Source: Syncephalis plumigaleata
Lineage: Eukaryota > Zoopagomycota > Zoopagomycetes > Zoopagales > Piptocephalidaceae
Length of the DNA stretch: 64,000 nucleotides
Reading direction: 5' to 3'
NCBI GenBank assembly: GCA_025201365.1
Contig: JAIXMF010000004.1
Span: 558,001-622,000, forward strand
Shown: positions 49,438-55,501 of the stretch, one piece after another
Numbering within the stretch: the stretch's first letter is position 1
Layout: each line of letters starts with the position of its first letter
Program-made: the position numbers and the translations under genes
The notes under the pieces: model-generated
The model's input: only the letters and a program-made list of their open reading frames with translations
Databases searched by the model: none
What the model was told of the DNA's origin: nothing

Positions 49438-52400
49438 TGAGTAGGCTAACTCCCGCTGTTATAGATGTGTCGAGACAGGAGACAAAACTATAAGTAAGAT
49501 GTACTATAATAATGATCGGATTAAATGGAATGTATGGGCTTGTATAATCTATAGCATGCATATAATTTATATATGAAATACACTACGGTACAATCTGTGG
49601 TTAATCTAAGTGAACGCATAAATCGAGTTTTGATAATGCTTTTAATAAAACGTAAATGCATATACCACATGTTTGAATGGAAAATATCAATTAGTGAATA
49701 GTATGAAGTAATGGACAGCTTGTCTTTATTGTATGTGTATAATGGCAGTAGAATGAAATAAATGGCTTACATTACTGATAGAAATACCGGAATAGTAGAA
49801 TGGAATGAGTGTATGAAATGACTGATACTAGATGAAAAGAAGAACGAGTAGGCTAGAATACAATGTCGATCTGGCAAGTAGAAGGTAATGAAGTAATAAT
49901 GGATAGGAAGGGATAGAATAGAAAGAGTGGTAGAAGTAAAAGGTACACGTCAATATAGATCAAAATGATTCATGTTTATTAATATTGCTAGTGGATGCTT
50001 GTCAATGATGGATGGCAATGAGTGTTGGCAATAAGCATTAGCATGGTTGATTATCCTGGTATGCTGTCGTTATTGTTGAATATTAGTTAATTGACATTTA
50101 GAATGGAATTAGTACATATTGTCTGGATATTGTCACTTGCATTAGCAATGAATAGAAATGTCAACTTACCGAATAGAATGGAAATAGTATGTAGCCAGCA
50201 TCATTGGCATTTGGATGTTCTAATTGTAATATTGTTAGTGTATTGTAATAAATGAACTTACCTGTAATTGATAACTATGAACGAACGAATGAATGAATGG
50301 TTATAATAAAGTAATAAATATGTTGTCCCCATCATATCCGTATACCGCCGCCACCGTGCCATCCTAGATGGAGCGCTATACAATGCTGAACGGTTGGAGA
50401 GCCTTGCGACACTATACCACTATACTGACAAATGTTATTACGCTAACATTCAGCAGTAGACACTACGGAGGCTGGCATATGGTCCATTCATTGCAAATGG
50501 CCATACACCACATTGGCAGCTTGGGGTGGTATTCAGTTGGCCAGCTAATTACCACCACTGACAACGTTGCCGCTCCGTAGCGGTTCATGATATATTTAAC
50601 CGAAGCGCATACGAGGGATCAGTAGATTAGCACATTGATACAAATGTATCTGTGCTAATAGGACATAACATAATAAAAAAGGATTGGGATGATGCAAAGA
50701 GAGAGTTTTGATGCATAAGCAAACATTATAAGATAATGTAAGCGGAGGAGATAGAAATACATAGAGACGTTATAAAGCAAAAACAGCAATAAAATATAAT
50801 AGCGTAGACATTAAGTATTGGAATAAGCAAACATACGTTGAATTATAGCAGCATTGGAATAGAATGATGCAAGAAAGAATGATTAGAAATACATAGATAT
50901 ATTACAGTTGAATAGGATAGCGCGAATAAAGAACGATTAAACACACACAGAAACATATCATTAAATAGTGTCAGTCACCATAATACCAAGTAAACTAGGC
51001 CCTTCTCCTTGAAGCAGCAACATGATGGTCAAATATCACGGCAAAGCATAGCTAAATGATATTATGATGGCAAATAACCTAAACACATATCAATATAGAA
51101 TAAAGATATGTATTCAAGCATTTGCAAACCGATACATTTCATAATACTCATATAATAAAGAGGCTACCCGGCTACATTAACAACTGAATGACCTGTAGAA
51201 ACAATGGTGACTTACCGTTTCTTTGGGTATCCAACATTCCCTAAGTAAATGTAGTTTACCATTGCTTTGCAGTAGCTTCATATTATACAAGCATATGAAT
51301 GTCCGCAAGCAAGTAGCGTAGAAGACGACACCCGTTACAGGCACCGACATCACACTGAGTTGAAAAAGAGTCAACTACGCTCATTACCACACTCAGCGCT
51401 ACGCTATACGCAAACAGTTTACAGAGCACTAACCTATTTCGCTATGTGTATGTTTAAACAAAGAAAGTGAAAGTGAAAGTAAAGAATGAAGAGTGAAGAG
51501 TGAAGTAATGAGAGAAGAAGAAAAGAAGAGTAGCGAGGAAGAAGCGAAGCTAAGCAAGCTGTAGAATCGAGCGCTATTTATTTGTTAAAATGACGTCGTT
51601 AATCGTCATTTGGTGATTCAAGTAAGTACTGATGATGCCTCATTGTAATTCATTTTGAAATTTAGTATGCCGATAACCATCCACTTCAATAATCCAACTT
51701 GATCATATCCTTGTATTTCATTTCATTTTATTTCTTATATATGATCTTTTTACTTGACCGTTACATAATAGTGTTTATTATAATAAAATCAGGTATGACA
51801 ACGTTTCAAAAGAGAGAGAAAGATATATCTAGTATGTGCAAAGGGCGCCGCCATTATTAACCATTTAGATTGCACGCTATTCTGTATTTGGCAATAAATG
51901 CTTTATTGATAGTGATAGTGCTACATTCTACTTCATTTCCTAGTTTAGCACCTACGATTATTTTATTACGAATGATTTGTCAATGAGATTAGTCGAGACA
52001 GCAGAGTGTATTAATGTGTGCGCTGATATACCGTTTATCAAAGGTGAAACGGTAAGTAACGCTAAAGTGGCACGTACCTGAATGAGTGGGACCAGCTCAA
52101 ACCAGGCGGAATCCTTATTGGTAGAGATGTAACGACGAACCAATCATCAGTAGAAGTATCACAAGCCATTACTAATGAGTGTCGTTTTTCGAGTTCATGT
52201 CATTAACATCTAGTATGTACATTTCCTATGTTGATCAATCTACTTCAAAATTGCTATTTTGCGGACGATTGCTATTGTATATGTATGAGTTAATAATGAC
52301 TCATTAAATCACCTGCTTACTCTACATGTAGTACAACGGAATCTCGCTTAATCCTAACAAGTGCACTCTTTCTCTATCCAAATATTTCTCTCCTTCAAAT

Positions 52401-52595
52401 GCGCGCACGTAATAATGACCGCATATGAATCATATGAGTCATATGAATCATCTACATCATCTACGTCATATATACTCTCTCTTTTCTCCAAAATCTTTCT
52501 GTTCCCATTTACATTACTCTTATTTACTACATTATAACTCCTTTCTACTTCATTCAGATTGCTCTCTTATTTATCTATCTATCTATCAATAGCGT
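49438..52595. other. AT-rich gene-poor region
   Basis: 3.2 kb without a convincing gene. 49680-50300 and 50700-50930 are A/G-rich with loosely repeated AATGGAATAG-like words. A GC-richer island at 50340-50590 has a 70-codon open frame without a domain. A minus-strand open segment at 51374-51217 ends at a GTAAGT donor downstream of a pyrimidine-rich, promoter-like stretch (51460-51560, minus strand). These could be exons of non-coding transcripts. No repeat of known class, tRNA or MITE copy was found. Confidence 0.5.
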
Positions 52596-52624
52596 GCACT
52601 GTAGTTAATGAACAACTACAGTGC
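52596..52624 (+). other. Perfect 11-bp hairpin
   Basis: GCACTGTAGTT (52596-52606) and AACTACAGTGC (52614-52624) are perfect inverted repeats around a 7-nt loop. It lies 15 nt before a GTAAGT donor (52640) and about 100 nt before the tandem structured motifs. As RNA it is a stable stem; as DNA it could be a protein site. Confidence 0.6.
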
Positions 52625-52727
52625 TTATTAATTAACAAGGTAAGTTAATTATTATTAGGACACGACATTTCATATTTGCTTTTAGGTACACCCTTTTAAA
52701 TGCTGTATCAAAAACTTGCATCGCCAA

Positions 52728-52910
52728 CGTGACTAGACCGCAAGGTGACAGACGGTACTCGCATGCCGCGGGACTCTAAAAGGCATGGGGTGTGTGATAT
52801 CCCGTCACGAGTAGGCCAATAGCTTGCGTATCGTCCCAGGTACCGACCAATTGTTTTCAGCATGCAATACTGTATATCACTGTTGTTGTTGAAAGCTGTT
52901 ATTGGTCTAC
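52728..52910 (+). ncRNA. Structured RNA motif, copy 1
   Basis: Predicted pairings on the + strand: CGTGAC 52728-52733 with GTCACG 52804-52809; GNRA hairpin ACC-GCAA-GGT 52737-52746; CATGCC 52762-52767 with GGCATG 52782-52787; GGG/CCC hairpin 52787-52789/52801-52803. The closing helix is GTAGGCCAATA 52811-52821 with TATTGGTCTAC 52900-52910 (11 bp, one G-U). Two long-range pairings cross these: CGGTAC 52753-52758 with GTACCG 52840-52845, and GGGAC 52770-52774 with GTCCC 52833-52837. The G-U pair and GNRA loop support this strand. Class unknown: possibly a ribozyme or riboswitch aptamer. Confidence 0.7.
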
Positions 52911-52927
52911 GAGATGCAGTAAATGAT

Positions 52928-53097
52928 CGTGACTAGACCGCAAGGTGACAGACGGTACTCGCATGCCGCGGGACTTTAAAAGGCATGGGACACATACAGC
53001 CCGTCACGAACAGATTTGATGACTAGCGTATCGTCCCAGGTACCGACAACAACGCGCGGTAGGTGACGATCTGCCGTGCGCCGTTATCAAATCTGTT
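52928..53097 (+). ncRNA. Structured RNA motif, copy 2
   Basis: Same architecture exactly 200 bp downstream. The first 48 nt (52928-52975) are identical to copy 1, as is the 22-nt block 53026-53047. All core pairings recur: CGTGAC/GTCACG 52928-52933/53003-53008, CATGCC/GGCATG, CGGTAC/GTACCG, GGGAC/GTCCC. The closing helix is 53009-53020 with 53086-53097 (12 bp, perfect). It has no sequence similarity to copy 1's helix, so it is compensatory change along its whole length. The inner hairpin (CGGTAG 53057-53062 with CTGCCG 53071-53076) also differs in sequence from copy 1. Confidence 0.72.
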
Positions 53098-53198
53098 TTG
53101 TCATTTACTAGATGTTTGATACTAAATGAGCATGGGGTCTTCTTTCTTTAATGGTAAGCCTTTATTATTAATTAACTAATAGCTTTACTAACACACAG

Positions 53199-55501
53199 CA
53201 ATAGCACAAATGATTAGAATTTATTTAATGATGTGCTACCTTCTATTAATTACAAGGTTACCACTTGAGACATTACATCTAGCTTTTACTAATACGATTT
53301 GGATACAACATTTATTACATCGTTATAAATTCACTAATAAATTCTGCTTATTCAATTATCTCACTTCATATCATACATATTGCTCACTCATGTCATTTCT
53401 ACATTATTCTGCCATTTCAATATTGGCATCATTTCTCGTTCCTACTAACTAATCTTATTATACGTTTTTATTTAATCCATTACATACTAGATCGCTCATT
53501 CCACCATTACTTTCATACACTCCCTTTCGCTCTCTTTATTCATTATGACTATTTATTTCCATCATTCTATCTTATCCCACTACATATACATGCTTGTCAC
53601 TACTGTCAGTTCACACTGCATGTATCCACTATTCCACCTATTGCTCATTCCCCTTGTTATTTACTTCTTTACATAGCACGCGTCTTATTCGTATCAACTG
53701 CATTCCAGTTATTTCCCTTGTTTCCCTTTCCCTTCTTTACCAATATGCGTCCTCTTCGTGCTAATCTCATTTCCCTTGTCAGTAAACAACACGCGTCTAC
53801 TTCCTCTTGACTATATGCTAATTATTCCTCTCCTTCTATTTACTTGTTCACTTTCTCAGTAATACGCGTCTTTTTCTTGTCATTCGTATTCCACTTACTC
53901 CCTCTTTCACTTTAGCATACACCTTACCAATAGTAGCTATTCTGCCATACTATCTCTATGCCGTTTATTTATTTCTTTGTTTTCCTCTTGCTCTATCCTA
54001 TCTACATGCTCACTTGTCGTTATTATTACTATATCAATAAGTATTGTTTGTTGTTCGCTCTAGTCCTTTGTTTTCTATCACTGTCTTGCTTATTTATCAA
54101 TGTTTAAGCGTTTACTGCTCTCGTTGTAATATGCACCTTTCACTTTTACCACTCTTTTCCGTCATCTGTTTGTATGCCACCCTTACGTCATGCTTTTATT
54201 TGTATTTTTATTTGTTTATTGCCATCTCCATACTTTATTAACTTACAAGCATACACTGCTTCTTCGAATAAACTGGCATACGTGTTCATGCACTCTTCCT
54301 TGCTCATTCCTTGCTCATTCGTGACAAGTCAGTCATTCTACTAGTTACTGCTTGTTTATTACATTGTTTATCGTGTATTCACTTTGTTCACTCGTTGCTA
54401 CTCCTACGCCATTAACCGTAAGCATTATCAACATAGTTTATTTAATGATACACGATTTAAAATGCTCATTGAATACAGCCAACTGCTCTATCCTTATCTA
54501 TGGTGGCTTATTCTTTGTCCATTTCTATTTTGTTTGCAGTAGTCTACTGCACTTTGCTTCTACTCGTGCACTAATACCAATATGATATACACTACATGTC
54601 TGATACACCTCATTAATAAAACTGTACGTAGACTAGCACATTTCAACCAAAGCAATACAAACAATACAAGTATGCATAAATATACAGGTCAATAATACAT
54701 CGATACAAGTTCATCTGGTCTATTAATCCATTATTCTATTGCGTAAACATTAAATACTAACTGCTCCATTCAATCATCTAGCCATTTATTAAATAAATAT
54801 GCGTAATCTATTTTACTTTAGAAGCAGTTATTAACTGACCAATATCATGAGCTAATCATGATATTTATACATATCAATGGAGCAATCAATATAATTGTTT
54901 ACAATATTTATTACTATCTCACATGTACATAAATTATAGACGCGATCAGACGATAACCCGGCATGTTACAGTTTAACATAATATTCACACTAATAGAAGA
55001 CAGCAGTAGTATGCTAGAGGGAGAGAAAAACAAAATCCATATCATTTGCATAGACAAGCATATCGTTCATTACGACTGATTAATGCAAATCGTCTCATAT
55101 CTACCATTACTTCAATAGCATTGTAGCATAGATAGGATTTCATTATACACCTCTATATAATGTAAAGCTGACCAGAATTTGATGCAAGCCTTGCTACTTG
55201 CAGGATTGATAACTATACTCTAACCATGAAGCGTATAATGGTAAGGCACACACACACAATTATTGGAAGGTGGTGGTTGACACCTACGCCAATCAAAGTA
55301 GCGATTACCAATGTAACTAGACCATAAACGATATGAGCAGTCTAAACTAGCATAGTGGCAATAGTGATAGTAGCATATCCCTTATTCATCCTAGTAGTCA
55401 TTACGGTCGCTCTGCTTGGAACGCTTTCATTTCTTCTTGGACTATTTGTCAGTCGTGTTAGTATACCCTTTTCCTCTGTAAACAGAAAGTGCCATCGTGT
55501 A
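53199..55501. other. Pyrimidine-rich gene-poor region
   Basis: After a possible acceptor at 53198 there is an 80-codon hydrophobic open frame (53210-53452) without homology clues; it could be chance. From 53450 to 54600 the + strand is strongly C/T-rich, with ACGCGT words near 53680, 53792 and 53866. From 54600 on it is AT-rich without features. No protein gene is supported. Confidence 0.5.

Follow-up and report, generated by a model that had tools for sequence, protein, structure and literature searches.

Do two near-identical blocks of sequence in the genome of Syncephalis plumigaleata, a fungus parasitising other fungi, mark a structured RNA, and if so, of which kind? The blocks lie in a stretch of 64,000 nucleotides (contig JAIXMF010000004.1, positions 558,001 to 622,000), here called the window, where the two motif copies start at 52728 and 52928 on the + strand. 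The spacing of exactly 200 bp given by the initial annotation is confirmed, as are the identical blocks described there, one of 48 nt (52728-52775 and 52928-52975) and one of 22 nt (GCGTATCGTCCCAGGTACCGAC). Searched with up to 3 mismatches, the window contains the 23-nt core pattern twice, and none of 100 shuffles contains it. The enclosing helix was said to differ in sequence between the copies and to pair nonetheless; pairing is indeed full in both, with 11 of 11 pairs in copy 1 (one of them G-U) and 15 of 15 in copy 2. Using slightly wider arms, the longest uninterrupted helix is 13 bp in copy 1 and 16 bp in copy 2; when the 3' side was dinucleotide-shuffled 5000 times, these lengths were reached 5 times and 0 times, respectively. 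The differing enclosing helices of the two copies are real. Copies a and b are identical at 93 of 95 core positions in the window, while the similarity of their 3' peripheries is matched by 103 of 200 shuffles; helices F and G are nevertheless formed by each of the two copies. In this arrangement, helices free to change in sequence hold a core that is nearly constant.

A DNA search of the fungus's own genome (32.6 Mb, 383 contigs) gave six motif matches, which form three pairs: the one in the window, one on contig C318 (728991/729192, the 0.73 Mb paralogue) and one on contig C329 (149803/150003). The starts of stem A are offset by 200 bp at all three loci, and the core identity between a and b is 91/95 in the C318:0.73 Mb paralogue and 86/95 at C329. 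A broader query (52690-52930) returned the same six copies and nothing more up to E=10. At a fourth locus, C318:1404602, only CATGCCGCGGGAC is left, fused to the 3' tail, and we regard it as a decayed remnant. With six motif copies in three loci and one remnant, the block is not a high-copy repeat, and plasmid and phage collections hold no real match to it (phages gave no match, plasmids a single one of about 40 bp with E=0.2). Four extra matches from a genome pattern search with 3 mismatches were set aside as noise, the reversed control having given 16. The remnant itself (3588-4194 of L062, C318:1401000-1408000) is truncated and internally deleted, and lies directly downstream of an ORF whose DUF7729 match is weak and below the cut-off.

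The unit measures about 0.9-1.05 kb (about 52.28-53.33 kb), and its left neighbours differ at all three loci. Similarity between the window and the C318:0.73 Mb paralogue runs from 52275 to 54402; as the right flank is common to both up to that point, these two copies may be one segmental duplication. Similarity to C329 covers 52440 to 53331-53359. Upstream of the window copy a repeat family ends at 52278, and downstream repeat homology starts at about 53328-53495. The C329 locus has a ceramidase-domain ORF as a neighbour, being situated about 1.3 kb upstream of it; neither of the two ORFs tested on the other side of the locus has a Pfam match. The repeat families that flank the unit in the window, at 49692-52278 and 53495-54512, are found in many genomic places (lower bounds, 40 candidates having been scored out of 325 and out of 104, respectively). 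At two further loci (L070, L071) both families adjoin in inverted order, suggesting that they are parts of one larger element, and the longest ORF at another repeat locus (L063) has 209 aa.

On the + strand, the minimum-energy fold of segment 52690-53140 reaches -161.3 kcal/mol (z=-5.07), and 0 of 100 shuffles are as good; on the - strand the same segment gives -134.8 kcal/mol (z=-1.43), with 8 of 100 shuffles as good. This + strand fold encloses two domains in an outer helix, each domain having a closing helix of its own, and the helix pairs specified are all present in the window (11/11 for Fa, 15/15 for Fb, 18/18 for Ga, 12/12 for Gb and 17/17 for the outer helix). The outer helix (52690-53138) joins 52690-52712 to 53115-53138 by 8, 5 and 4 bp; one of its pairs is lost in the C318:0.73 Mb paralogue, where base 52705 is deleted. 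Domain a (52717-52918) is closed by UGCAUC/GAUGCA with a probability of 1.0 and has its core at 52728-52847, and its lobe F (52811-52910) holds hairpin G (52853-52896). Domain b (52918-53109) is closed by AGUAAAUGA/UCAUUUACU, with a core at 52928-53047 and a lobe F (53009-53097) holding hairpin G (53053-53080). The A lobe of copy a (52728-52809) is made of stem A (CGTGAC/GTCACG), the GNRA hairpin h1 and hairpin C, which carries GGGAC in a 14-nt loop, and that of copy b (52928-53008) has the same anatomy. Substitution density among the three loci delimits an inferred structured RNA body, the most conserved part of the unit, at 52593-53146 of the + strand. It opens with two + strand hairpins, HP1 (52596-52624, 11 bp, GCACTGTAGTT/AACTACAGTGC), with 11 of 11 pairs and no substitution in the three loci, and HP2 (52629-52651, 8 bp), which has GTAAGT within its loop and stem. 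A 3' hairpin, TAGCACA/TGTGCTA (53202-53238, + strand), is unchanged in the three loci. Across copies, a pseudoknot-free partition function gives probabilities of 0.48-0.98 for stem A, 0.03-0.90 for h1, 0.09-0.96 for hairpin C and 0.25-0.99 for hairpin H, and so does not, alone, favour every part of the fold.

How are the lobes of a domain linked? The initial annotation had proposed a double pseudoknot with a GNRA tetraloop. Each of its pairings CGTGAC/GTCACG, CATGCC/GGCATG and GGGAC/GTCCC is fully formed in every one of the six genomic copies if G-U is allowed, which occurs in copies having TATGCC or TATGTC instead of CATGCC and in one with GTCTC; five copies have GCAA as the hairpin loop and one has GTAA, both of the GNRA type. 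The remaining pairing, CGGTAC/GTACCG (B/B'), is present in both window copies but keeps only four of six pairs in three of the six genomic copies. The double pseudoknot is not supported, as only GGGAC/GTCCC is kept throughout, and we reject B/B' on the two pairs lost in these three copies and on the changes at 53027 and 53030, which favour another element, hairpin H. In H (52827-52844 in copy a and 53027-53044 in copy b, + strand), GTACCG can serve as the 3' strand and present GTCCC as the loop. Copy a reads CGUAUC-GUCCCA-GGUACC with 5/6 pairs; the consensus NGUNUC-GUCNCA-GGUACC has 5 or 6 of its 6 pairs in every copy, and the changes at 53027 and 53030 in copy b of two paralogues bring it to 6/6. 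The loop of H can pair with the GGGAC loop of hairpin C (52770-52774 in copy a, 52970-52974 in copy b) by 5 of 5 pairs in all six copies, one G-C being replaced by G-U, where 53036 has changed from C to T in one paralogue. Hairpin H is present in the minimum-energy fold of all six copies. Its probability is 0.99 in four of them, and 0.31 and 0.25 in the two that carry the 53027/53030 changes, where a shifted UGUCG/CGACA-type hairpin competes with it; H was moreover chosen after these changes had been seen. Since B/B' fails in half of the copies while H is kept and its loop can pair with GGGAC in every one, we infer that the tertiary link of the model would be a loop-loop contact of C (GGGAC) with H (GUCCC) between the two lobes.

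Comparison of the three loci speaks for an RNA of the + strand whose structure is under constraint. Eight independent substitutions fall in paired sites (52762, 52864, 52909, 52966, 53011, 53014, 53030 and 53036), and all eight keep a standard pair on the + strand in all three loci, whereas each fails on the - strand in at least one locus (p=0.004; 7/7 and p=0.008 if 53030 is left out). Four positions stand outside this strand test: 52962 and 52990, attributed to conversion, both of which also keep pairing; 53027, which is C-C in the window and G-C in the two others; and the deletion at 52705. Within 52690-53140, transversions make up 6 of 8 substitutions in unpaired or mismatched sites and 0 of 8 in paired sites, where all are transitions (p=0.007); counting the linked block 52756-52762, which holds three of the six transversions, as one event leaves 4/6 versus 0/7 (p=0.02). 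Over the whole body (52593-53146), 17 substitution columns in 511 sites compare with 35 in 302 flanking sites in the three loci (Fisher p=9e-6), for body limits set after the substitutions had been seen and with the conversion tract omitted except for column 52966; with the tract included the count is 28/554 (p=0.0009). Substitution density itself is not significantly lower in paired than in unpaired sites of the fold (8/287 versus 8/164, p=0.29).

The conversion tract (52956-52999) is apparent in the C318:0.73 Mb paralogue, where copy b carries the sequence of copy a, suggesting that core sequence is exchanged between the two domains. Gene conversion between a and b thus appears to contribute to the identity of the cores; the alternation of identical and unrelated blocks within a copy would not be what one conversion tract yields. 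No pair changed on both sides was found in the six-copy core alignment, for which 500 shuffles were uninformative; few copies, their single genome of origin and the apparent conversion account for this absence. The pairs of stem A and h1 are invariant in all copies, so that variation gives no test of them. Consequently, strict covariation comes only from helices F, G and P0 of domain a versus domain b.

Does the RNA belong to a known family? Rfam 15 gave no match at the gathering score over the whole window and none at E<=10 over 52600-53200; over the C329 copy (L007 2850-3520) there were two matches far below the cut-off (E=0.98 and 9.3), both non-ribozyme. Nuclear RNase P and RNase MRP RNAs are alike in being large structured fungal RNAs, but their models (RF00009 and RF00030) each have one match genome-wide, and these lie elsewhere (C2:742523 and C46:66140). 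As for a telomerase RNA, the candidate telomere-template hexamers CCCTAA, CTAACC, AACCCT and TAACCC are absent from 52475-53330, but six contig-end stretches are likewise without TTAGGG/CCCTAA, and the telomere repeat of this species may differ. Judged by title and start of abstract, none of the papers listed on Syncephalis ribozymes or noncoding RNA and on Zoopagomycota structured RNA deals with such an RNA. One survey reports 15 fungal motifs (PMC5640933); its main text contains neither Syncephalis nor Zoopag-, and its section headings show no tandem two-lobe RNA. The initial interpretation is partly supported, namely where it describes a structured RNA in tandem, missing from Rfam, whose core is near-constant and whose helices are re-paired. 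The motif fits no catalogued RNA family and its shape appears preserved at three loci; it is an unclassified RNA under structural constraint, which only one genome has yielded so far.

Several resemblances met during these searches were discarded. A likeness to the upstream repeat family was taken as chance, with 34 matches against 9 in the reversed control; six of the 34 are the motif copies, and the other 28 carry 2 mismatches, 26 of them reading CGTTACAGGTACCGAC. Model R1 found no domain in the four tested loci bearing CGTTACAGGTACCGAC, and its best value in ten repeat-family loci was E=1.7. Within the window, CGTTACAGGCACCGAC (51334-51349) resembles the 3' block of the motif. Matches to CCGNAAGGTGACAGACGG in 31 prokaryote contigs are about what chance would give by our own estimate; over these and one viral contig, the best R1 value is E=0.22. 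Viral scans with five patterns gave 0, 0, 1, 3 and 0 stretches. Three viral contigs with R1 scores of 21.2, 16.5 and 16.1 bits (E=0.0006, 0.008 and 0.01) had been picked for a 17-nt piece of the model; the best-scoring one, which was viewed, matches little beyond this piece and misses the core.

Whether the unit is a gene in its own right can be addressed from its surroundings. A putative promoter lies at 52360-52476 (+ strand), where repeated ATCTACATCATCTACGTCAT elements are followed by TATATA (52469-52474), as read directly and aligned across the three loci; the stretch is duplicated at the C318:0.73 Mb paralogue and partly kept at C329. In the former case, the TATATA-containing stretch is tandemly duplicated (L008 2500-2750, C318:728.5 kb). 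The GTAAGT of HP2 could mark the 5' splice site of an intron of 46 nt (52640-52685). This supposed first intron has one substitution among the loci, being as conserved as the RNA body, and partly folds into HP2, so that it may belong to the RNA. A second possible short intron, GTAAGC ... TACTAACACACAG (53154-53199, + strand), is a weak candidate from direct reading, and its final CACAG is CACAA in the C318:0.73 Mb paralogue. A spliced exon, paired at both of its ends, is a possible alternative. The longest ATG frame starting in the unit encodes 80 aa (53210-53452), past the motif; three of four loci keep it open (the window, the C318:0.73 Mb paralogue and the remnant), and at C329 it is cut to 38 aa. 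Differences among the three open copies at codon positions 1/2/3 number 7/7/5, 7/4/3 and 6/5/4, mostly nonsynonymous, and the third position takes 5/19, 3/14 and 4/15 of them. With no preference for a codon position, nothing suggests a constrained protein from this frame. Besides, no + strand ORF of at least 150 aa lies between the unit and 61.3 kb of the window, and in L008 the 2.9 kb that follow the unit contain none of at least 110 aa; genes split by introns would escape these searches. No downstream gene common to the three loci was found in the stretches read. As the upstream TATA region is common to the loci and a common downstream gene was not found, an independent gene is favoured over a cis riboswitch or leader.

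Such a leader, whether a cooperative riboswitch in tandem or another element ahead of a coding gene, would explain the aptamer-like constant core and the tandem layout; glycine-type tandem riboswitches, too, consist of two similar domains, one after the other, whose core is nearly constant. The possible short introns near both ends and the 80-aa frame just past the motif, open at three of four loci, would fit as well. This frame is however without codon-position constraint and cut at C329, the ORF searches downstream of the window and L008 units gave none of the sizes sought, the neighbour at C329 is ceramidase-like, and, in contrast to tandem riboswitches, neither a common downstream gene (in the stretches read) nor an Rfam match was found; we hold this reading to be very improbable. 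Rather more room, though still an unlikely one, is left for a non-autonomous mobile element or its remnant, in which the RNA fold would serve the element's own mobility. Left flanks that differ at three loci, a left end that coincides in two of them (52275-52278), a C329 match that ends (53331-53359) near the start of repeat homology in the window copy (53328), one truncated remnant and the repeats adjoining the C318 copies speak for it. Against it are the very low copy number and the pairing-compatible change in the body, and no target-site duplication or terminal repeat was noticed when the ends of three copies (window, C318:0.73 Mb and C329) were read.

Two other readings give the core an activity of its own. 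A pair of self-cleaving ribozymes releasing an RNA unit of about 200 nt would account for a near-constant core with freely re-paired helices and for the 200-bp period at all three loci. HDV-like ribozymes have a crossed strand order similar to the pairing first proposed here. Yet the HDV-like nested double pseudoknot is not found in all copies, B/B' losing two of six pairs, and with them the HDV-like strand order, in three of six; helix F encloses the 3' strands, and Rfam gives no match for the window motif, those at C329 being sub-threshold and of other types. There are two copies, not an array, and conservation starts at stem A with no scissile site obvious on inspection. Although variants of HDV-like self-cleaving ribozymes are known in fungi (PMC5640933), such a pair seems to us improbable here. 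A tandem exonuclease-blocking RNA, each domain of which would stop 5'-3' decay so that the two protect a stable fragment, as in flavivirus 3' UTRs, is equally doubtful. A junction plus a downstream-pairing loop is a layout common to many RNAs. The layout is like that of flavivirus xrRNAs of the divergent tick-borne or no-known-vector type, described with three-way junctions, an apical loop pairing about 30-40 nt downstream, apparently in a stem-loop, and two copies in one virus (PMC5760640); each domain here would likewise have a three-way junction with an apical loop able to pair with a downstream stem-loop, in two tandem copies. Differences from xrRNA are the fungal chromosome, the absence of an Rfam match at E<=10, a longer spacing (58 nt from loop to loop), a long junction linker, and the additional lobe F and outer helix.

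Our preferred reading, which we put forward tentatively and at somewhat less than even chances, is that the unit is a small dispersed gene for a trans-acting structured noncoding RNA, probably made by Pol II, with twin binding platforms that act as an RNP scaffold or decoy. The gene would be transcribed from the + strand and yield an RNA body of about 450-550 nt, closed by the outer helix and made of two consecutive domains of about 190-200 nt. In each domain, lobe A would be a three-way junction of stem A, the GNRA hairpin and hairpin C, and lobe F would be helix F holding hairpins H and G; the 5-bp contact of loop C (GGGAC) with loop H (GUCCC) would tie both lobes together. The near-constant core around this contact may be the working surface, present twice, with peripheral helices holding it in place, their sequence free to change while paired. 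The two cores would then most likely be twin platforms for a protein or ligand. A bolder version, possible but on the doubtful side, is a new cellular RNA class in early-diverging fungi, with tandem loop-loop-locked domains and a catalytic or exonuclease-blocking core, that is, xrRNA-like or ribozyme.

A large structured RNA of no known class, in a fungus that diverged early, would open up a group that has been little surveyed. The unit is a compact testable object: its core is present in two near-identical versions, and the one genome holds three paralogues and a remnant. Further along the window, at 63.1 kb, an ORF of the kelch type shares 95% identity with a S. fuscata protein over 91% of its length, and 88% by tblastn across an intron.
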